A stretch of 64,000 nt of DNA from Siphonodentalium dalli (taxonomy: Eukaryota > Mollusca > Scaphopoda > Gadilida > Siphonodentaliidae), in contig CP136065.1 in NCBI GenBank assembly GCA_032622095.1, positions 37,544,732 to 37,608,731 on the forward strand. The letters run 5' to 3'. Shown in pieces: positions 1-39,994 of this stretch. The notes under the pieces are model-generated. The model saw only the letters and a program-made list of their open reading frames with translations. It made no database searches and was not told the origin of the DNA. Position numbers and translations under genes: made by a program. The stretch's first letter is position 1, and each line of letters opens with the position of its first letter.

Positions 1-90
1 ATGGCATCACCACTAGAGTTACTGTCCTGCAAAACTGTCATGGCAGCTTTGTTAAACAGACAGTATGCCCTGCCATCTGGTAAAATTTAA
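1..90 (+). other. Possible terminal coding exon, unidentified
   Basis: A short frame is open from the first base of the window to a TAA at 88-90 (30 codons including the stop). Because it starts at the window edge it could be the last part of a longer coding exon. The residues YALP near its end recall a motif in bystin, but four residues are too few for an identification. There is no clear splice acceptor because the upstream sequence is missing. It may equally be chance. Confidence 0.15.
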
Positions 91-1608
91 TGCCTGAGGC
101 TGTGTCTGATGTTGTATCATAATGTTTCGATATTTAAATTGACTTATGGTTGCTTTACATTGCTATTAAAATATTTTTTATTTTTATTTTCTGTTAATTT
201 TGGTAAATATTTGTTATAAATTGCCAAATTCTGCATGAAAAGGGTTTAAAATTAGACAATATTATATCCCTCTCAAAATGTATATTAACATTTCCTCTTC
301 AATTTAGTAATATTATGGTATATAAGGACATACTTCAGTTATACAAGATGCATTAGCTAGTAAAATTGAAAAAAAAGCTAAACTTTTTGGCTTTATTTTG
401 AGGATTGACACTAATTTTCAGGATGCCTCATATTGGAAATATAAACCACTACTGCTCGATATAATCCATTTTTGATTTCAGTAAGGTCTATATTTTGATA
501 AAATACTATAAGAAACGCTGTTATTCACACATATACATATATATAGGAATCAGGGAGCTAAATGTGTTCTAGAGTCGGGGATCGAGTACACCGTGGAACC
601 CTAAAGGTGAAGGTAACTGAAGAATGACCTTCACCTGATACATGCGACACGTTATTAAAGGATCACATCGCGTTTATTTGATTTGTACATAATATCTAAA
701 TAATTTAAACTGGTGAATGAATGGGGGAACGGATTTTTGTGAGCGGGAAATGTATTTAACTAGCTGTTGTAGATCTGGGTTTTTCCAGATCAAATTTGGC
801 TGTGAGATAGCCCTGTCGTACACTTGGGGATTTATTTTAAAATGTAAACACATGACCTATGATTTTTCTTGCATTTTCGTGATCAACTGGTGTCAATCTA
901 GCTGGGTAAACATCACTGGTATGGCCTGCAGGCTTCAATTCAGCGAATTTGGCCGAAACGTTAACACTGTCGCCTATGGGAAACCATTTAGTTCCGTGAT
1001 TCCTGATACTATACGCGGTGCTTTCATTGTGCGTGTAATTCTTGTTGTGAGCCGCAGTACTAAAAATAACTAACAATGAGTATGATGCAAGACATGCAAC
1101 TCTACAAATACATTCCAAAACTGACAAAGTCACACTTCCGTGTATGGAGTCTTCTTTAGCAACACAATCGAGAGGTCACGAACATAATATACAGAAACAC
1201 CTTATTCCACTAAAGTTACCAAAAACAAACACGGGAACAAACTGGCTGATATATATATGTTGATGAACCTGACGACAACACCTTCAAATCCACATTCAAC
1301 GACACTTGGACGGGAAGAGACAATAAATTCCATGTTAAATTTAACTAAAATACACCCAAAAAAATGCTTTTAATGTTCTGTACACAGTGAACATTTAATC
1401 CTGATGCACACACCAATGATAGTTAAACCAATAAGTATGAGAATATTGACGAATAGGCCATACAAGCAAACCCATTTCTTTGGCCGAAAATTCAAGGTAA
1501 AAATCTCCACATCACTATACCGAACTCGGATATATTCACCAATACATCCATAATTTGATGCCAAATATATTTATGTTCCTCGTTATTGTAATAGTTCTAT
1601 CTGTTTAA
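91..1608. other. AT-rich stretch with no supported gene
   Basis: I see no protein similarity or RNA gene here. The only local structure is a perfect 10-bp stem (AGGTGAAGGT at 605-614 pairing with ACCTTCACCT at 627-636). The overlapping open frames on both strands around 717-1133 have no recognisable motif and are probably chance. Confidence 0.5.
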
Positions 1609-2924
1609 TAGCTCAACTTTACTTGTAAAGTTTGAGCTATTGCCATGCATGCCTTGGTATCCGTCGTCCGTGTGTGCGAGTGTGCGTTTGCGCGCGTGTG
1701 TGTTCGTGTGTGCGTGGAGACGTCCTTCAACAATTTCCATTAGCAAGGGTTACAGTTTATCATGTTCCATGTATATTTGTCATGGATTTTACATTGACAT
1801 GTAGATGGGAATGAGTCATTTTTGACTCATTCGGATATAAAATATGGCCGCCGGCAGCCATCTTGGATTTACTCTTTGCATAACTAAATCGCTTGGCGCG
1901 GGCGACAAGTCGAACATTTGGTCGGATCATTATGAAATTTGTCGTTGCAGTTGCCATTGACATGTAGATGGGAACGATCAATTTTGGGGCCATTCGGAGA
2001 AAAAAACATGGCCCGCCAGCAGCCATCTTGGATTTCAAAATTCAGTCCGGAGTATTCATCTGATCATGATGAAATGTGTCGTGGATGTTAATATTGACAT
2101 GTAGATGGGAACGAGTCATTTTTGGGTTATTCGGCCATAAAACATGGCCGCCAGCAGCCATCTTGGATTTTACTGTTTGCATGACTAAATCGTTTGGCAC
2201 GGGCTACAGGTCGTACCTTTGGTCGGATCATCGTGAAATTTGTCATGGACGTTAACATTGACATGTAGATGGGAACGAGCATTATTTGTGTTATTCGGCA
2301 AAAAAAAACATGGCCCGCCAGCAGCCATCTTGGATTTCAAAATTCAATCCGGAGTATTCGTATGATCATGATGGAATTTGTCGTGCATGGATGTTAATAT
2401 GATATGTAGATGGGAACGAGTCATTTTGGGTTCATTCCGCCATAAAATATGACCGCCGGCAGCCATATTGGATTTTACTCTTTGCATGACTAAATCATTT
2501 ATGCACGGGTGACTAGTCGTGCCTTTGGTAGGATCGTTATGAAATTTATCAAGGCTGTTGACATTGACATGTAGATAGTAACAAGTCATTTTGGGGTCAT
2601 TCGGCATATTTGATTTCAAAATTCAACCCATTAGCACGCGGGCTGCAGGCCGGAGTGTTCATCTGATCATCATGAAATTTGTCGTGGATGTTAATATTGA
2701 CATCTAGATGGGAACAAATAATTTTTGGGTCATTCGGCCATAAAATTTTGGATTTTACTCTTTGTATGACTAAATCATTTGGCACGGGCTACAAGTCGTA
2801 TTATTATGAAATTTGTCGTGTCTGTTGATATTGACATGTAGATGGGAACAAGTCATTTTGGGATCATTCACCATTCCATTCATTGCTCATCACAAAAATT
2901 TAACTTCTTCGCAAAGTTGAGCTA
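1609..2924. mobile_element. Inverted-repeat-bounded element filled by tandem repeats
   Basis: The left end has TAGCTCAACTTTAC (1609-1622) and the right end has the reverse complement AAAGTTGAGCTA (2913-2924). The left end is also a local hairpin, since GTAAAGTTTGAGCTA follows at 1625-1639. Almost all of the interior is the tandem array annotated separately. This organisation (short inverted ends, no coding capacity, internal tandem repeats) fits a non-autonomous DNA element. I could not read a convincing target-site duplication, so the boundaries are provisional. Confidence 0.45.
1796..2870. repeat. Dimeric tandem array, alternating ~164/~137-bp monomers
   Basis: The phrase GACATGTAGATGGGA or a close variant recurs at about 1796, 1959, 2096, 2260, 2401, 2566, 2699 and 2833. 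The spacings are 163, 137, 164, 141, 165, 133 and 134, so two monomer types alternate in a repeat of about 300 bp. One type carries GCCGCCGGCAGCCATCTTGG or a near copy plus a CTCTTTGCATGACTAAATC-like segment. The other carries a GCCCGCCAGCAGCCATCTTG variant. The CCATCTTGG core resembles a YY1 site, but this may have no function here. Short open frames across the array reflect its periodicity. Confidence 0.75.
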
Positions 2925-3265
2925 CAGTGTCACGGACACTTCATTTACATGTTATTTGTTTGTTTGTCGTCAACGTTAATTATTCTAGTGTTTTGTATCG
3001 GGGAGGCGTGAACTCTTAAGTGCTGAGCACTTGTTCTGTACTCCAAATCCCTTTGCCATAATATATTAATGTTACATATGATCTAATCATGTTAAACAGT
3101 TCTATTAATTGAGAATTTAAGTACATATTATAACTGAAAATTGTCTAGCATCATAAATGTCGACTAAATTGTTCGGAAATCTTCCGCGTATAATGCATGT
3201 TCCGAGAAACCTCTTGTCAAATTAGATATACATAATTGTCGGTTTCGAACGAACCTTTTCCGTTT

Positions 3266-3369
3266 AACAAACTTGGTATTCCGGCTATACCCACCGCGAG
3301 CGCCTCCTGTAGCTTTAACCCACTTAACATACCTCAAAGTCCTGTCATTTTAACTATATGCTAACGTTA
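3266..3369 (+). repeat. 104-bp direct repeat, copy 1
   Basis: This segment, from AACAAACTTGGTATTCCGG to CTATATGCTAACGTTA, recurs in the same orientation at 3985-4088 with about three substitutions. The two copies enclose 615 bp of unrelated sequence. The pair could be terminal repeats of a small element or a duplication. The ends do not show the TG...CA termini of LTRs. Confidence 0.7.
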
Positions 3370-3984
3370 AAGGCCGAAAAGTTTTGTGTTCATATGCTTA
3401 ATATGGCACAGGTTAGCGACTTGCAACTGAGGAAGATCCTATTGGTTGTATCTTTCTTTTGACTTTTCAAAAACTTTACCTCTTTGGTCTTCTAAAATTT
3501 TAAAGTTTTACCTTTTTCCTTAAATTACAAATTCTTAGGTATCTTTGATTTTAATTACCCTCTTTCGATCTGTACGTTCTTAATTACTTTTCAAAATATT
3601 TCCAGCCGCTCCGTGACTTTGCTCTCCGACTCAAAATTTTATGCCAAGAACACGAGGAACACAGTGTCTGCATGTGATTGGGACCCTGACCCTAATATAT
3701 CCCCTTTCTTTCATATACTTTGCAGACACTCTCCTCTTGTTCTTGACATCCATTACATTTTTGCTCCGCCAATATTATGTGGGTAAAATGACGAATATGT
3801 TTGAGGCGTTTTTCTTTCTTACTAAAACCTATGTTGACTAACAAATAGGCCATTTATGGTCTACCTGCCAGTGCTTCACTTTGACTTGTTTTCTGTCATT
3901 CTGGTGTGCTAGGTTTGGTGTTGCTTACCCTGGAACTCGTGTTACCTGGTCTGACACCCACTTACCTGATTGGTTACACATAAA
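3370..3984. other. Spacer between the 104-bp direct repeats
   Basis: The 615-bp spacer has short open frames on the plus strand (3641-3841 and from 3881 into the second repeat), but neither shows a recognisable domain. I see no tRNA-complementary primer-binding site next to the left repeat and no clear purine tract next to the right one. Confidence 0.4.
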
Positions 3985-4088
3985 AACAAACTTGGTATTC
4001 CGGCTATACCCACCGCGAGCGCCTTCTGTAGCTTTAGCCCACTTAACATACTTCAAAGTCCTGTCATTTTAACTATATGCTAACGTTA
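3985..4088 (+). repeat. 104-bp direct repeat, copy 2
   Basis: This is the second copy of the repeat at 3266-3369. The substitutions are CCTCC/CCTTC, AACCC/AGCCC and ACCTC/ACTTC. The near identity suggests a recent event. Confidence 0.7.
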
Positions 4089-4439
4089 TCCAATAGTTAA
4101 CTTCGCAAGCCCGGTCTCACCTACTCAGTCAGAATCATTGAGGTGCATATGCACACAGGGACTTGTATATATTATTATATAAACTAGAGTATTATATAAA
4201 AAATCTGATATGTCATATAACACTAGGATTTTTGTTTTTGATACAAGCGGGGTTGCCCAAATATGCACAGCACTTGTTTATATCGTTGTGTATATTGTTC
4301 TGTGTACTTATATTATGTCACAACTTAAAATAGATCTGATAAACTTGGCTTGTTAGGTGCAAGGCATGTCGACAAGTTGAATATGAAGTATTTCTAAAAT
4401 ATATAGAGTTTTTGGCCTTCGATTTGGGGGTTATTTGAT

Positions 4440-5058
4440 ACCTTTCGCATAATGAACTACTGCTGATAAGAATTAGGACTAGCTTATATATAGTAGTCGC
4501 ATAATTAACAACTGCTGATAAGAATTAGGACTAGCTTATATTATTCGCATAATGAACTACTAGTGATAAGAATTAGGAATAGTTATAATAGTTGCACAAC
4601 GAATTACTACTTATACGAATTACTACTTATACGAATTACTACTTATACGAATTACGAATAGTTTATAGTAATCGCATAATGAACTACTACTGATAAGAAT
4701 TACGAATAGCTTTAAACAGTCGCATAATGGCTGCTGCGTATAAGAATTACGAATAGTTATAGTAGTCGCATACTTAACTACTATTGATAAACTTTAGGAA
4801 TAGTTTACAGTAATAGTAGTCGCATAATGACTACTACTGATACGAATCACTGATAGTAGTCGCACAATGAACTATTACTAATAAGAATTATAGGAACAGC
4901 GTATACTAGTTACATACTGACTACTACTGAATTTCGAATAGCCAACAGTAGTTGCACAATTAACTACTACTGATAAGAATTACGAATAGCTGAGAGTAGT
5001 CATAAATAATTTTTTCGTATGGCCCAAAAACCATTTCGCATAATGGACGACTATCGAC
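4440..5058. repeat. Degenerate tandem array of ~45-50-bp units
   Basis: The array is built on CGCATAATGAACTACTACTG followed by ATAAGAATTACGAATAG and a variable TATAGTAGT-like link. Around 4608-4650 a shorter ACTTATACGAATTACT sub-unit has expanded. Units drift in sequence and length. An inverted partial unit lies at 5286-5326 (CGTAATTCTTATCAGTAGTG), and a related single unit occurs near 54,708-54,762. Confidence 0.7.
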
Positions 5059-10932: not shown

Positions 10933-11411
10933 TGACGTCACCCCTCCCAAAAGACACTTTATGATAAAAGCGGTATTCGTTTATTTTAAGAGGATATCAT
11001 CCTACGCAGGTTTTGCGTACCTCCCCCCCTGTTATGCTCGGCGCGAATCAGATGCCCAAATCCAATGAAACACAAAAAATAACAATCAAAATCTAATACT
11101 CAATATATGATGGAAGGAAAATAAATAAAAATATGTGCAAGAACGATCATAATTATAACGTGTAATTCGTTGATTTGTTGAATTTCGTTGAGAAAAAAAT
11201 GAGTCTCTTGAGACGAAACCCGTGGATACTGTGTGCCACTTACAAATGGATCGGCAGCAATAAAAGTTCTTTATCAACCAATAATATTGTAAGTTACATG
11301 ACATTTTACGTAAATGTATAATAGAAACGTATAACAATAACAAATTGGAACGAAAGTTCTAATGGTTTGTTCCAAATAAATTGATATTGATATATTGAGG
11401 ATCTCTAATGA
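10933..11411. other. No supported feature
   Basis: There is a C-rich run near 11,020 and otherwise AT-rich sequence up to the boundary of the 33-bp array. I see no gene. Confidence 0.4.
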
Positions 11412-13250
11412 GTCGCAATTATATACGAATTTAGTGACGAGGTTAATCAATTTCGTATAGAATTTAGTGACGAGGTTAATCAATTTCGTATAGAATTTAG
11501 TGACGAGGTTAATCAATTTCGTATAGAATTTAGTGACGAGGTTAATCAATTTCGTATAGAATTTAGTGACGAGGTTAATCAATTTCGTATAGAATTTAGT
11601 GACGAGGTTAATCAATTTCGTATAGAATTTAGTGACGAGGTTAATCAATTTCGTATAGAATTTAGTGACGAGGTTAATCAATTTCGTATATAATTTAGTG
11701 ACGAGGTTAATCAATTTCGTATAGAATTTAGTGACGAGGTTAATCAATTTCGTATAGAATTTATTGACGAGGTTAATCAATTTCGTATAGAATTTAGTGA
11801 CGAGGTTAATCAATTTCGTATAGAATTTAGTGACGAGGTTAATCAATTTCGTATAGAATTTAGTGACGAGGTTAATCAATTTCGTATAGAATTTATTGAC
11901 GAGGTTAATCAATTTCGTATATAATTTAGTGACGAGGTTAATCAATTTCGTATAGAATTGAGTGACGAGGTTAATCAATTTCGTATAGAATTTAGTGACG
12001 AGGTTAATCAATTTCGTATAGAATTTAGTTACGAGGTTAATCAATTTCGTATATAATTTAGTGACGAGGTTAATCAATTTCGTATAGAATTTAGTGACGA
12101 GGTTAATCAATTTCGTATATAATTTAGTGACGAGGTTAATCAATTTCGTATAGAATTTAGTGACGAGGTTAATCAATTTCGTATATAATTTAATGACGAG
12201 GTTAATCGATTTCGTATATAATTTAGTGACGAGGTTAATCAATTTCGTATAGAATTTATTGACGAGGTTAATCAATTTCGTATATAATTTAGTGACGAGG
12301 TTAATCAATTTCGTATATAATTGAGTGACGAGGTTAATCAATTTCGTATATAATTTAGTGACGAGGTTAATCAATTTCGTATAGAATTTAGTGACGAGGT
12401 TAATCAATTTCGTATATAATTTAGTGACGAGGTTAATCAATTTCGTATAGAATTTAGTGACGAGGTTAATCAATTTCGTATAGAATTTAGTGACGAGGTT
12501 AATCAATTTCGTATAGATTTAGTGACGAGGTTAATCAATTTCGTATATAATTTAATGACGAGGTTAATCAATTTCGTATATAATTTAGTGACGAGGTTAA
12601 TCAATTTCGTATAGAATTTAGTGACGAGGTTAATCAATTTCGTATAGAATTTAGTGACGAGGTTAATCAATTTCGTATATAATTTATTGACGAGGTTAAT
12701 CAATTTCGTATATAATTTAGTGACGAGGTTAATCAATTTCGTATAGAATTGAGTGACGAGGTTAATCAATTTCGTATATAATTTAGTGACGAGGTTAATC
12801 AATTTCGTATAGAATTTAGTGACGAGGTTAATCAATTTCGTATAGAATTTAGTGACGAGGTTAATCAATTTCGTATATAATTTAGTGACGAGGTTAATCA
12901 ATTTCGTATAGAATTTAGTGACGAGGTTAATCAATTTCGTATAGAATTTAGTGACGAGGTTAATCAATTTCGTATATAATTTAATGACGAGGTTAATCAA
13001 TTTCGTATATAATTTAGTGACGATGTTAATCAATTTCGTATAGAATTTAGTGACGATGTTAATCAATTTCGTATAGAATTTAGTGACGAGGTTAATCAAT
13101 TTCGTATATAATTTAGTGACGAGGTTAATCAATTTCGTATAGAATTTAGTGACGAGGTTAATCAATTTCGTATAGAATTTAGTGACGAGGTTAATCAATT
13201 TCGTATAGAATTTAGTGACGATGTTAATCAATTTCGTATATAATTGCGAC
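11412..13250. repeat. 33-bp minisatellite (~55 copies) bounded by 18-bp inverted repeats
   Basis: The unit, readable as ATTTAGTGACGAGGTTAATC plus AATTTCGTATAGA, is 33 bp and repeats about 55 times with single-base variants. Common ones are TATAGAA/TATATAA, TTAGTG/TTATTG/TTGAGTG/TTAATG and GAGG/GATG. The array is bounded by GTCGCAATTATATACGAA (11412-11429) and its exact reverse complement (13233-13250). Because 33 is a multiple of three, one minus-strand frame stays open through every variant except a one-base deletion near 12,516, giving apparent proteins of 410 and 242 residues with period KLINLVTKFYT. I regard these as artefacts of periodicity. The plus-strand frame is broken by TAA in the TATATAA variant. 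Confidence 0.9.
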
Positions 13251-13637
13251 GTATTTATATCACATAATCACATTTTAGCCAGGTAAAACGATCTCGAAAT
13301 GGCTGGGGCTAAAAAAAAATTAATATTGATTTCCTTATCTCAACCAAAGAGGAAGTAAAGACACCTTCAAGAAAAATATAGAGTTCTATTTAAATATGTC
13401 TTTTCAAGTTGACAAAATTGTTCAACCACCCTTATCACCATGTCTACCTGATAGTCAGCTCTAAATAACGCAACACAAATTAAATATTTTAATTCTAATT
13501 AACATAATACAGTTCCGGTACCGACATCGATATCATTGCGCCAAAGCTTTTACGTCAATGCGCGTGCCGATAGTACACGTGTGTCTTACTAAAATGTGAG
13601 AAAACTGTGTGAAGATATGAGATAATGTCTATATAGT
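13251..13637. other. No supported feature
   Basis: AT-rich sequence between the 33-bp array and the trinucleotide repeat. The phrase TATCACATAATCACA at about 13,257 also occurs near 10,565, but this may be chance. Confidence 0.4.
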
Positions 13638-33959: not shown

Positions 33960-34560
33960 TCTTTCTTCGGTTGCAAAGTTAGCATATTATTCAAGGGGTA
34001 GAGTGGTTGGGGGATGAATATTTCCGCACCAACTTCATACAAAATGTTTGGAAATGCATCAAGCTGTCCGTCTGGTGTCCAACATCAAGTTGATAACGAA
34101 TTCATTATCTCATAACACAAAGTACACGGTTGGTTATTTCAGGAACCAATGCCGTCGAATGTATGATATATAATAACTACTATAAGCATGTTAATGTATT
34201 TACGCTATATAAAATAAGTTATTATTATTAAAGCATGTTAATGTATTTACGCTATATAAAATAAATTATTATTATTAAAGCATGTCAATGTATTTACGCT
34301 ATATAAAATAAATTATTATTATTAAAGCATGTCAATGTATTTACACTATATACAATAAATTACAATAACACCCATCAAAAACACCCATCAAATGTCAGTT
34401 TTCTTACATTCGTGCTAAATATTATCAGCCACGTGTCTGCTCAATTTCCAGGTAACCCCAAGCATTTTCCCGAAAGTGGGATCTATAGGGTGAATCCGAA
34501 TATTCGGTGGCCCTTCGGCGATGATATCGATCTAATCTGACCTGGTTAAAGTTATGTGAA
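33960..34560 (+). repeat. Dispersed repeat copy 1 (partner at 44,570-45,030)
   Basis: Shared blocks with 44,570-45,030 include CAACATCAAGTTGATAACG, ACACAAAGTNCACNGTTGG, TGTCAGTTTTCTTACAT and CACGTGTCTGNTCAATTT, in the same order and orientation. Copy 1 contains an extra 47-bp minisatellite, while copy 2 has a 56-bp duplication at another place. Confidence 0.65.
34185..34372 (+). repeat. 47-bp tandem repeat, four copies
   Basis: AGCATGTTAATGTATTTACG and CTATATAAAATAA then TTATTATTATTAA repeat at 34,185, 34,232, 34,279 and 34,326 with few changes, so the duplication is recent. Confidence 0.9.
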
Positions 34561-34865: not shown

Positions 34866-34870
34866 AATAT
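34866..34870 (+). repeat. 5-bp target-site duplication, left (AATAT)
   Basis: AATAT precedes the left inverted end at 34,871 and is repeated at 39,376-39,380. In AT-rich DNA five bases could match by chance, but the copies sit exactly at both ends. Confidence 0.55.
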
Positions 34871-35398
34871 AGTACAGAGGCCAAAACCACAAAAACCCTC
34901 TAGAAGTCACTTTGTCGACATATGAATGTATATAAATAAAACCTTTTCTACTGTATAAAGGGACACCCCAGGGTCACTCCACGCCCGGTAGTCATCCGTA
35001 TGTGTGTGCGGGGCCATACAAGGGGGATAACTATGTTTCCCATAGAAAACAAATCTAAAAATTAGATAATTGGTCTCTATCCATTGACAACACTTTTTAA
35101 GGATGAGACGTTTAGCTGATTTCAACTAAATAGGTATAAGTAAAGACGTACTAATATGTATTGAGCTGAAAAAGGATATTTTTCAGACATTAAAGTCATG
35201 TTCAGATATTTTTATAGGAAAAATTGGCAATTTTTAGTCATTTTCTGCTGTATGTTCCTTCAACATTATGTATTTTTGTCTGCAGGGCATATTGATTTAT
35301 GTATTCCATCAAGAAACCAACAAATACAACAAGATACTTTTACCCTTTTGTATGTCAGATATTCATACTCATTGATTACTGAATTAGGCATCCATACA

Positions 35399-35608
35399 AT
35401 AATGCCCTAAACAATCGACCTCTTAATCACAGCAGAATTATCGGTAACTTTTCAGGATTTAGTCGGAAATATGGCTTGATGCCATTCACTGGAAAACTCT
35501 CAGTGAAAGCTTTCCGATGAATGGCAACAAGCCATATTTCTGACTAAATCCAGAAAAATTACACATAATTCTGCTGTGGTTAAGGAGTCGATTATTTATG
35601 GCATTACT
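35399..35608. mobile_element. ~210-bp hairpin MITE nested in the transposon
   Basis: AATAATGCCCTAAACAATCG, TTAATCACAGCAGAATTAT and GATTTAGTCGGAAATATGGC on the left are mirrored by GCCATATTTCTGACTAAATC, ATAATTCTGCTGTGGTTAAG and CGATTATTTATGGCATTACT on the right, around a centre near 35,500. It is almost a complete palindrome and has no coding capacity. Confidence 0.75.
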
Positions 35609-36900
35609 GTAGTTTAAGCACACGTTTACAATTTTAAAGTTTTGAAAGTACATATTTTGAACTGAGAAGATTTTCAAAGATTATGAAGGTAAGTAATATT
35701 AATAGTTTTCTGAAATGTTATTAAGTGTCTTAGGAAACACATTTGACCCACTTGATTTTGCAAGTTCATTCAAAAATATTTTTAATGTGATTTAGAATAA
35801 TTATTCTGAGATTGACAAGAGCCAAGCCTATGAGTAAAAATTTAATGTACTAGTACTCTATTTACACTACATTTAGCACAAGGCATTAAGGACCGCTCTA
35901 TTCATTTGAATTTTTTTTGCATATGTGATGCCAGGGATTCTGAAAAATGCCAAAATCACCAGTTCAGTTCATTTTGAGCCAATGTATTTTAATGAACTCT
36001 ACTATATCTCATAAATGTATAGATCAACTCAATCTGGACATAGAGTGAGTATTATTTAACTTTCCAATGTCTAATACACATATCATTACAGTATATTTCA
36101 TTCATAGGGTATACTTTTAGTTATATTTTCTGCCTATACCAATACTATCCATTCTGATCTTCAGAATGACTATTACAGTTTATAATACACAAACTGTAGA
36201 TTCATCTTATTCACTCTATGGTGAAATCCTAGGCTTAACTCTTTCGCTGCCACACACATTTGCATGCTTTGGTTGTCCTAACAACAGTTCCAGTGGATGT
36301 TTCATTGAAATATGGATACAACCGTAGAGCTATGAGTCGAGGTTGTAATATATCATATGGAGTCATAATAATATTAAACATATCTGACTCAGGCTGACTG
36401 TAACTCATTTGTTTTGGTTTTTGGTTGACACATAAAATAAATTAGTTCTAAATAAATTTCTCAATATTTGTGACTAAAACAAGAATGTCTCAAATTTTGG
36501 GCTTATCTCCTTGGCCCTGGCACTATAGCATGGGTCATTCAATGGCCTAGGAGACAGGCCTCTGAAACTGACAGAGTTAATTTTTTAACTTATATGTAGC
36601 TCTTATTATCCAAAATGACAATAAATTATTTAATTAGATTAGTTATTTCTCTCCAGGTTCCATCATGTCACACAATTAAGAGTCTCACAGTTCTATCAGA
36701 ATGACAGTAAATGTCAGAGAATATAGTAGAAGATGATATCGACATCAGCTGATGTGTACCATGATAAAGTCAGGTTAGTTTTCCCATGTTTGTATATTCC
36801 TGAGATAATGGTGTAATTTACATGCTCAGTCAAATACCAAGTTTGTTTTGTACAAATGAAAATATTATCTGAAGTGCATAGTAGCACTAAGAATAAAAAT
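35609..36900. other. Non-coding interior of the 4.5-kb transposon
   Basis: AT-rich sequence with many stops on both strands. It could include degraded 5' exons or introns of the gene at 37,154 but I recognise none. Confidence 0.35.
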
Positions 36901-36910
36901 GCGTTTTGTC

Positions 36911-37000
36911 GCGACATAGCCCAGTGGCTGTACGGCTGTACCATCAGGGTGGGATTAAATACCGTTGGCCGGCCCTATAAAATATTTACGTGAGTCCCAA
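36911..37000 (+). mobile_element. Possible tRNA-derived SINE head
   Basis: TAGCCCAGTGG at 36,917 fits the pol III A box TRGCNNAGYNGG. About 35 bases on, GTGGGATTAAATACC can be read as a T-arm with the seven-base loop ATTAAAT, in the place of the B box. Downstream sequence is unassigned. It is not a functional tRNA because the T-loop lacks TTC and no acceptor stem pairs. Confidence 0.4.
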
Positions 37001-37153
37001 AGATACCACTTAACCCCACACCACGTAAGGACCCTCTTAATGCCCTTTATTGAACTCCCTAGTGATGCCACTGGTATGACCTGTGTTTTAATATATCATA
37101 ATATCATATGACTACAAATGGTTTATTTTCATATTGCAGGACATGATAAACAA

Positions 37154-38530
37154 TGGATGCTATAGAGCCAGTAAAAGTGGTGCCACCAACTAAGGCCAGA
37201 GTGACCAAATGGGACCTATGCCTATTCTGTCAGAAAAAGACACACATCCCAACATCAAGAGCTGAAATTGTAGGCTTAGAGTGAGCGTCAGTTTGTCCCG
37301 CAGTTACTAAGTGCTGTAGATAGTGGAAGAGATATTGATATTCCATCCATCCTTCAATTCGAACTCAACAAGACGCCAATGTCACTCGCTTCACTAGATG
37401 GACAAATCCATTCCACAAATAAAGCTGCATAACTTCACATTCTATCAGACCAATACTTCAGGACAAATGGATGTAATAAAGTTGATATTGTCTTTGACAA
37501 TTATTCAGCAGCCTCCACAAAATTTGGGACATGCCAAATGAAAAATCAGTCAACTAGATACATCCACAAACTTGTTGAAAGAAGAAATCTTCCACTGCCA
37601 CATTCCTGTGTAACATTCATTGGATCATCAAAACATAAGAAAAGCCTTCATCAAATCCTGACTAGTGAGTTACTCAAGAAAGGAGTTGATCAACCTATCG
37701 GAAATACCGTGATTGTAACTGGTGGCTTTGCCGACTATCAGATACCTATCTCTGAACATCAACTGGAATCCCCATTAGATCATCTAATAGCATCTCACGA
37801 AGAAGCTGATACCAGAATGCTATTACATGTTCAAGATGCTGCAACAAACGGAAATGTTAAAGTGATAGTCCAAAGTCGTGACACAGACGTCCTTGTATTG
37901 CTTCTCGACCACATGCAAAATCTTGATTGGGAAATTATTATGAGTGTGGGGACTGTGAAGAAACCTAAATACCTCCGAATGATATAGAAAGAATTTTCAT
38001 GCATCAGTAGTTAATGGATTGCAAATTTATCATGCAGTTACGGGTTGTGATACAACCAGTCAACTGTTTGGAAAAGGGTCAAAGTGAAGAAATACACGAA
38101 AACACCTTCCCTGTGACAACCTATTGACCTGTATGGTCAGTTTGATAAACATATGGCAGAAAAATTTATGATGCAACTGTATTCTCAATCATCAAATGCA
38201 TGTGGTCTGAATGAACTCAGGGCTGAAATTTTCCATCAACTAGCAGACTTATCAAAACTTCCACCAAATAAAGATTGTTTGCATCACTATCTACTCCGCA
38301 GTCAATATAAAACATTTGTTTGTTCCGAAATTACCATCTCCTACCAGTTACAGTTGGAAGGAAGGTGAAGGAGGCATGACATGACACTCATGACTGCCGA
38401 ACCATTGCCGAATCCATTTCGGGAAATCACAACTTGAAAATGTTCAGGTTCCAGGTGTCCTTCAAGATGTAGCTGTCGAAAATCCAACTTGAATTGTTCA
38501 CTCGCCTGAATTGTTTAAGCCCTTGCAATC
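37154..38530 (+). pseudogene. Decayed gene of the EADTR / GCDTTS protein family
   Basis: Several frames together show, in order: CLFCQKKTHIP, a Cys-pair start; ELNKTPMSLASLDGQ with NKA (about 37,370-37,430); FDNYSAASTKFG (about 37,497-37,530); SHEEADTRMLLH then DTDVLVLLL (about 37,795-37,910); HAVTGCDTTSQLFGKGSK (about 38,034-38,085); LYSQSSN, LNELRAEIF and LPPNKDCLHHYLLRSQYKT (38,170-38,325); and a Cys-rich end with CPSRCSCRKS (about 38,455-38,490). These blocks and their order mark a family of uncharacterised proteins present in many copies in invertebrates and fishes. EAD..DTD resembles acidic motifs of PIN/FEN-like nucleases, which is my inference only. The gene is broken by a TGA at about 37,282, a TAA near 37,431, a shift at about 37,985 and stops near 38,085. 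It is shorter than its usual relatives. It is the only gene in the transposon, so it is the best candidate for its former transposition protein, or a captured gene. Confidence 0.7.
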
Positions 38531-39312
38531 TGGACACTATAGTCAACAATCGTGACAGTGACTCATCTTTGAATGATACACATGTTTGAACTGTTTAAAA
38601 CAGCATGAGATTTTGGAATTCAAATTTTAAAATGAAAATATAAAATTATGAATCTCAATTTCGAACAATTTTGCATATTTTAGTGAATAATCACATTTTA
38701 AAATTGTTTTGAAGTGATATTGTTAATCAATAAACCCACCACAATCGGACATAAATATAAGCAGACTTCCAAGAGTGCCCTATTGTACATAATATTATGT
38801 TTTGTCGGCTTATACCAAAATATAGAAAATTTTCGGGATTTTTTATTATTTAGGGGAGGGGTAGTATATTTTTAATAATTTTCAAACTATTATATGTAAC
38901 ACATTGTGTTCTATCCCATTATCAAGAGCATAAATCAAGGTAAATTATGAGTCCATAAACTCCATGTAAGGATAAAAAATTCTTGGGGAAAATAAAATTT
39001 TAAGTTTGATAAAATATCTGAATTTCTGATTTTTTTCCCAAATAATTGAACTTTTTTGGTAAAAAAAATTTGTCTACTAAATTAAGAAATTATTTGGGTG
39101 CATTTTGAGGTAGAATATCCATAGTATTACACATAAAAACAATTTGGATGTTCTTAATATTAAAAAATTGGGATAAATAACTTTTTTTTTAAATAGTGTT
39201 TTTTGGATGTCAAATCTACATTTTTGACCAAAAAAAATCATCACACACCATAAACTGTTGACTACCGGTATTGGAGGGTCCACAAATGCACTGACTAATA
39301 GAAAAAAATGAT
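38531..39312. other. 3' non-coding part of the 4.5-kb transposon
   Basis: Very AT-rich with poly(A)/poly(T) runs and no motif. It runs up to the right inverted end. Confidence 0.4.
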
Positions 39313-39375
39313 GGTTTCAGTTATATACATTCCGATGTCGACAAAATTATTGTTTTCTTGTCTGGCCTCTGTACT

Positions 39376-39380
39376 AATAT
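39376..39380 (+). repeat. 5-bp target-site duplication, right (AATAT)
   Basis: This matches 34,866-34,870 at the outer side of the right inverted end. Confidence 0.55.
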
Positions 39381-39599: not shown

Positions 39600-39994
39600 T
39601 TAATCCTGTCTATACAAACCGGCCAAAACCGGCCAAATAAAGCTTCAACAGCATAAAATATCTTCGGTCTGTCTCAATAGAACCATACAAATATGGATAT
39701 CATTGGAACCGGCTCCTTGACCACATTGTGATAGTTACAGTTATGCCCTGTGCCAATGCATTCTCTTATATATGCGAGTCGACCATAGGTCGCCTCGCAT
39801 ATATAAGAGAATGCATTGGCCTAAAAAAAATCTTTTTTTAACACTTTTTACCATTTTTTCTTACATTCTTTAACAATTTTATAATTTTTAATGTGTTAAG
39901 CCAATGCATTCTCTTATATATGCGAGGCGACCTATGGTCGACTCGCATATATAAGATAATGCATTGGCACAGGGCCCTTCTGTTGGGTAAAGGG
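39600..39994. mobile_element. TTAA-type hairpin MITE, copy A (left end altered)
   Basis: Two 69-bp near-perfect hairpins (39,752-39,820 and 39,900-39,968), each GCCAATGCATTCTCTTATAT...GCATTGGC with the palindromic core CGACCATAGGTCG, are also reverse complements of each other. The right end is TGTTGGGTAAAGGG followed by TTAA (39,995-39,998). It is nearly identical to copy B (46,614-47,070), but the left end lacks CCCTTTACCC and instead has CCTGTCTATACAAA, which also follows the right end. The left terminus was therefore lost or replaced. Confidence 0.75.

Follow-up and report, generated by a model that had tools for sequence, protein, structure and literature searches.

AcademX elements, a lineage of the Academ DNA transposons, encode a nuclease of the XPG type. 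The original Academ report is that of Kapitonov and Jurka in 2010, as referenced in an excerpt of PMC4455052, and the elements are described as common in bivalves in the portion of PMC10294476 consulted. According to sections of PMC10045372, Academ lineages are distinguished by an encoded nuclease or helicase, which is related to the length of the target duplication, 3 or 4 base pairs (bp) in AcademX and 9 or 10 bp in AcademH. Here we analyse a 64,000-nucleotide stretch of the genome of the scaphopod Siphonodentalium dalli (contig CP136065.1, C5:37544732-37608731; hereafter the window), which carries between short inverted ends the remnant of a gene with the protein motifs EADTR and GCDTTS. 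This region is very probably a dead, internally deleted copy of an Academ-type DNA transposon of the nuclease lineage (AcademX-like), with Academ compared by description only. Its features, in window coordinates, are as follows.

About 34867-39379: transposon relic as a whole
34867-34869, no strand: left target-site duplication ATA, 3 bp; 26 of the 28 other pairs of ends follow this rule too
34870-34883, plus strand: left terminal inverted repeat TAGTACAGAGGCCA, 14 bp
34911-34943, plus strand: left arm of a subterminal imperfect inverted repeat, 33 bp, 88% complementary to the right arm
35397-35609, no strand: foldback (miniature) element inside the transposon, arms of about 108 nucleotides, 85% complementary, TA on both sides
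37153-37281, plus strand: relic of an N-terminal exon, MDAIEPV...KWDLCLFCQKK, with a cysteine motif, preceded by an acceptor-like ttgcag
37274-38520, plus strand, limits approximate: broken C-terminal nuclease-like domain and cysteine cluster (VFDNY, EEADTR, DTDVLVLLL, GCDTTSQLFGKG)
37455-37456, plus strand: internal deletion junction, where the stretch with the first conserved aspartate (VIDGMALVQ in relatives) is gone; a gap relative to six of the six copies compared
39313-39345, minus strand: right arm of the subterminal imperfect inverted repeat
39363-39376, minus strand: right terminal inverted repeat TAGTACAGAGGCCA, 14 bp
39377-39379, no strand: right target-site duplication ATA, 3 bp

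An earlier interpretation made from the letters of this region, the sequence-only reading, had proposed perfect 13-bp inverted ends. These are real, and the 13-mer AGTACAGAGGCCA is exact at both sites, 34871-34883 (+) and 39363-39375 (-), with no mismatch at either, but the inverted match extends one base further out and makes a 14-bp end, TAGTACAGAGGCCA. The flanks read AATAT on both sides, and with the 14-bp end the duplication reads ATA/ATA. Even allowing two mismatches, the window has no third site for the 13-mer. Since two or more sites appeared at that tolerance in 17 of 100 shuffles of the window, the weight of the ends rests on the genome-wide count. In the genome searched (2.2 gigabases in nine contigs) the exact 13-mer has 134 occurrences (68 forward, 66 reverse), against 13 of a reversed control. 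Inverted pairs less than 10 kilobases (kb) apart were chosen by eye from 100 of the 134 sites, giving 29 pairs including the window copy, and a script was used to read the flanks of the other 28. Immediately beyond the 13-mer, all 28 pairs have T at the left end and A at the right end. Once the end is taken as 14 bp, 26 of these 28, like the window copy, show an exact 3-bp duplication (mismatched-flank control 14.4%), and none shows an exact 4-bp duplication (control 0.7%). The target triplets are AT-rich and not fixed (TAA, TTA, ATA, TTT, AGA, GTA, TAG, CTA, GGA, TAC and TGG).

The same rule is followed by a second subfamily, represented by the copy L037, which with a sister copy terminates in ...CTTAGCCGCTATACTA. 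L109 supplied its left end, TAGTATAGCGGCTAAG; the ends of L037 are perfect and CAG stands outside both. The 15-base end motif TAGTATAGCGGCTAA occurs 45 times in the genome against once for its control and forms six inverted pairs, five of which contain a nuclease match by coordinates, among the matches listed. An exact duplication of 3 bp is seen at all six pairs and one of 4 bp at none of them (mismatched control 2/30); two of the six have identical flanks and are counted as one insertion. The pattern TAGTA-AG-GGC is common to the ends of both subfamilies, whose C-terminal regions are 34% identical, and therefore the outer T is part of the element.

The less damaged relatives indicate what the gene remnant once belonged to. 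In L037 a single open frame of 1533 amino acids (48-4646) comprises N-terminal cysteine motifs, a DDE-like core and, at 3417-4646, the C-terminal nuclease-like domain with its cysteine cluster (2057-3286 in L103); the core carries the motifs VDNIDHN...SFHGT, MDEPLFAIAK, GGLHIEM and AHEQVN. Core and nuclease also share a 1174-residue frame in L103, where the N-terminal part lies in a separate frame, and part of the core shares one frame with the nuclease in L104 (1022 residues) and in L034 (859 residues), while L105 has the same order of parts spread over three frames. In an alignment of the cores, D-N-I/L-D, D-x-A/P-L, GG-x-H and A-x-E are present in most rows, with no invariant column and several rows partial, and no profile match of the core to a known DDE enzyme was obtained. 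These frames show the EADTR/GCDTTS piece to be the C-terminal portion of a large protein that also includes a DDE-like core. The proposal that a DNA transposon mobilises the EADTR/GCDTTS protein is borne out, and relatives with ends of this type code for it too. The proposal that a gene of this kind lies between the ends of the window copy has to be narrowed: the motifs are there, but they belong to only a broken C-terminal part of a DDE-plus-nuclease-like protein.

FEN/XPG (PIN-like) nucleases have a characteristic set of acidic motifs. We aligned the C-terminal region of six copies, which are 30-39% identical to the first and of which L103 and L105 are near-identical to each other, and found their acidic residues in the order of these motifs. 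Residues D10, D55, E156, E157, D159, D183, D185 and D241 and the GKK that follows are invariant; nine of the 44 acidic columns are invariant, and eight of these nine fall in FEN-type motifs. Eight cysteines near the C-terminus are invariant as well, and the Pfam TCR model (Tesmin/TSO1-like CXC domain) gave a best E-value of 0.061 with 14.1 bits, below its cut-off of 23.5. When the six-copy alignment was compared by hhalign with a profile of five archaeal FEN1 sequences of PDB, VFD was collinear with VFD, EEADTR with EGEAQA (one residue out of register), DTDVL with DYDSL, GCDT with GTDY and GKGKK with GIGLK. The score was 26.6, above all 100 column shuffles (maximum 23.9) and above the reversed alignment (12.8). 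On this motif order and weak profile score, the C-terminal domain looks like a nuclease. It resembles the family of FEN1, XPG and 5'-3' exonucleases (e.g. PDB 1b43) in its ordered acidic motifs and differs in its weak profile statistics, in being missed by Pfam XPG_I and in being fused here to a transposase.

These properties fit a kind of element already described, the nuclease lineage AcademX in the available part of PMC10045372. With it the present family shares a DDE-like core joined to a nuclease-like domain, inverted ends and 3-bp duplications, where the published length is 3 or 4 bp; unlike it, the window copy is a relic without the DDE part, and the likeness is one of description and not of sequence. 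AcademH belongs to the same superfamily, per the literature, but has a helicase and duplications of 9 or 10 bp, in contrast to the nuclease-like domain and 3 bp found here. As judged from this anatomy, the DDE core would cut at the ends and join these to the target DNA at positions staggered by 3 bases, a flap or branched intermediate may be trimmed or opened by the FEN/XPG-like domain, and the cysteine-rich parts may bind DNA.

Duplications of 3 bp are also made by EnSpm/CACTA and Harbinger elements, and EnSpm/CACTA ends start with CACTA. The same length is given for Zator in sections of PMC10045372. The present family is like these three in its duplication length and unlike them in its TAGTA ends, its targets beyond TAA/TTA and its fused FEN-like domain.

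Several observations weigh against an AcademX-like transposase with a FEN/XPG-like nuclease. The assignment to AcademX was made by description, from duplication length and layout. The FEN1 comparison has an hhalign probability of 3.4% and an E-value of 0.013 (2.4% and 0.02 in the other direction), and against the E. coli PolA exonuclease alone the probability is 0.4%, while that exonuclease compared with FEN1 reaches 90.8%. The first invariant aspartate, in a leading ID motif, which we take to be the counterpart of the first aspartate of FEN1, falls outside the stretch aligned to FEN1. Pfam XPG_I finds seven sites in the genome, none of which coincides with the listed nuclease matches; Pfam and NCBIfam models find nothing at cut-off on the proteins, and searches of PDB found nothing below an E-value of 0.1. 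Matches below the library cut-offs, such as MetJ (E-value 0.0092), were taken as chance. Two of the 28 pairs (C4:129998424 and C4:199221709) have no exact 3-bp duplication; no ends were found for L103, L105 and L106, and L104 has a left-end-like TAGTAGAGCAGC at 1612 and no right end in the stretch examined.

The most likely alternative is an undescribed superfamily of DDE transposons that gained a FEN/XPG-like nuclease independently. Neither half of the protein reaching a library cut-off, the empty PDB profiles and the knowledge of Academ by description only all agree with it. However, an encoded nuclease together with 3-bp duplications are AcademX traits in the part of PMC10045372 consulted, and the abundance of Academ in bivalves, as stated in an excerpt of PMC10294476, may likewise speak for a known group. 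We therefore consider a new superfamily improbable, and an AcademX-like element the better account.

Less probable still is that the EADTR gene is a passenger of an unrelated transposon whose true transposase lies elsewhere. A protein search of the genome for the nuclease part gave at least 151 matches, with 150 of 1444 first-look candidates scored; 41 of the 151 matches were entered for counting overlap with the pairs and the others were compared by eye. The interiors of the 29 pairs were mostly read in part, those of C2:123322656 and C3:10480882 lying outside the reading. A nuclease match lies inside 21 of the 29 pairs. Five further pairs (C1:9669184, C1:161068398, C1:175578822, C1:176109261 and C2:79739007), read 1.5 kb inward from each end, are the same element, in which a deletion takes away the beginning of the nuclease domain, and C6:39860574, which has these ends as well, is a miniature of 470 bp that holds no gene. 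A passenger would be consistent with this miniature and with the missing DDE part of the window copy. Nevertheless, L037 and L103 have the nuclease-like domain in one frame with a complete DDE-like core, L104 and L034 have it in one frame with a partial core, and the layout is kept in the second subfamily between different TAGTA ends. Moreover, an unrelated transposase between these ends, which would have refuted the sequence-only reading, was not seen in the interiors as far as they were read. The passenger gene was rejected, since the DDE-like core and the nuclease share one frame and the interiors, to the extent read, are those of the same element.

A transposon whose ends measure 13 bp and whose duplications measure 5 bp, the form first suggested by the AATAT on either side of the window copy, is very improbable and was rejected on the flanks of the 28 pairs: 6 of the 28 do match over 5 bp outside the 13-bp end (mismatched-flank control 2.9%), but 3 bp fits 26 of 28, the outer T and A are constant in 28 of 28, the second subfamily likewise starts with TAGTA, and the 5-bp match appears only where, beyond a 3-bp copy, the next outer base happens to be A at the left end and T at the right end.

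The window copy of this AcademX-like element is itself dead and belongs to a group of relatives from which the DDE part is deleted. SHEEADTR and DTDVLVLLL lie in an open reading frame at 37433-37987, and GCDTTSQLFGKG lies just downstream in a different frame; the nuclease-like remnant carries stops and frameshifts, the exon frame reaches a stop ahead of the nuclease part, and the DDE part is absent. No working protein is produced by this copy. In five copies (the window, L021, L024, L025 and L027) the N-terminal exon is joined at an identical place just before the nuclease, with the DDE part missing between them, and no such exon was found by tblastn in L031-L036. The foldback element at 35397-35609 has an empty site in the related copy L052.

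A more far-reaching reading is that the transposase depends on a second, functional active site in its FEN/XPG-like domain, and that the copies without the DDE part form a nuclease-bearing non-autonomous lineage, which formerly spread by means of a borrowed DDE half. The exon-to-nuclease junction common to the five copies favours such a lineage, while the stop in the exon frame of the window copy before the nuclease, and stops in the other copies, speak against it; on balance we regard the reading as a whole as unlikely.

The EADTR/GCDTTS copies examined in this genome are thus best viewed as the C-terminal part of Academ-type transposases and not as host genes. Automatic annotation may count such proteins as host genes of unknown function, because Pfam and NCBIfam models miss their cut-off on them; the string EEADTR was absent from the literature searched. 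A system with known ends, a known duplication length and an open frame lets one ask why a flap-nuclease-like domain should be part of a transposase. No confirmed relatives were found in viral contigs, and a viral scan with archaeal FEN1 gave nothing useful. A nuclease-like relative with 29% identity (L107, NZ_CAHJWD020000426.1) is present in the assembly of a gill symbiont of Bathymodiolus brooksi. It is the sole confirmed relative among the genome contigs searched and probably represents mussel sequence from the host within a bacterial record. Presence of the family in viruses or prokaryotes is unsupported.

Some further observations concern the surroundings of these copies. In L024 two ends of the family, one right and one left, stand back to back at 167-207 with 13 bases between them. 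The stretch of L104 that holds a divergent family copy also contains, at 308-1069 (-), an HSDQGANFES fragment, which is presumably integrase-like. Sequence similar to the foldback element of the window copy is also present in L044, L060 and L061. Just outside the transposon, at 39745-39975, two arms of 80 nucleotides are 98% complementary, each with a near-perfect palindrome of 33 nucleotides, and this looks like another foldback element. A tandem repeat with 47-bp spacing occupies 34184-34362, about 500 bp outside the left end. Far from the transposon, at 11274-13267 (-), open frames of 414 and 254 amino acids consist largely of a repeated YTKLINLVTKF-like unit; this is a minisatellite that stays open in frame.

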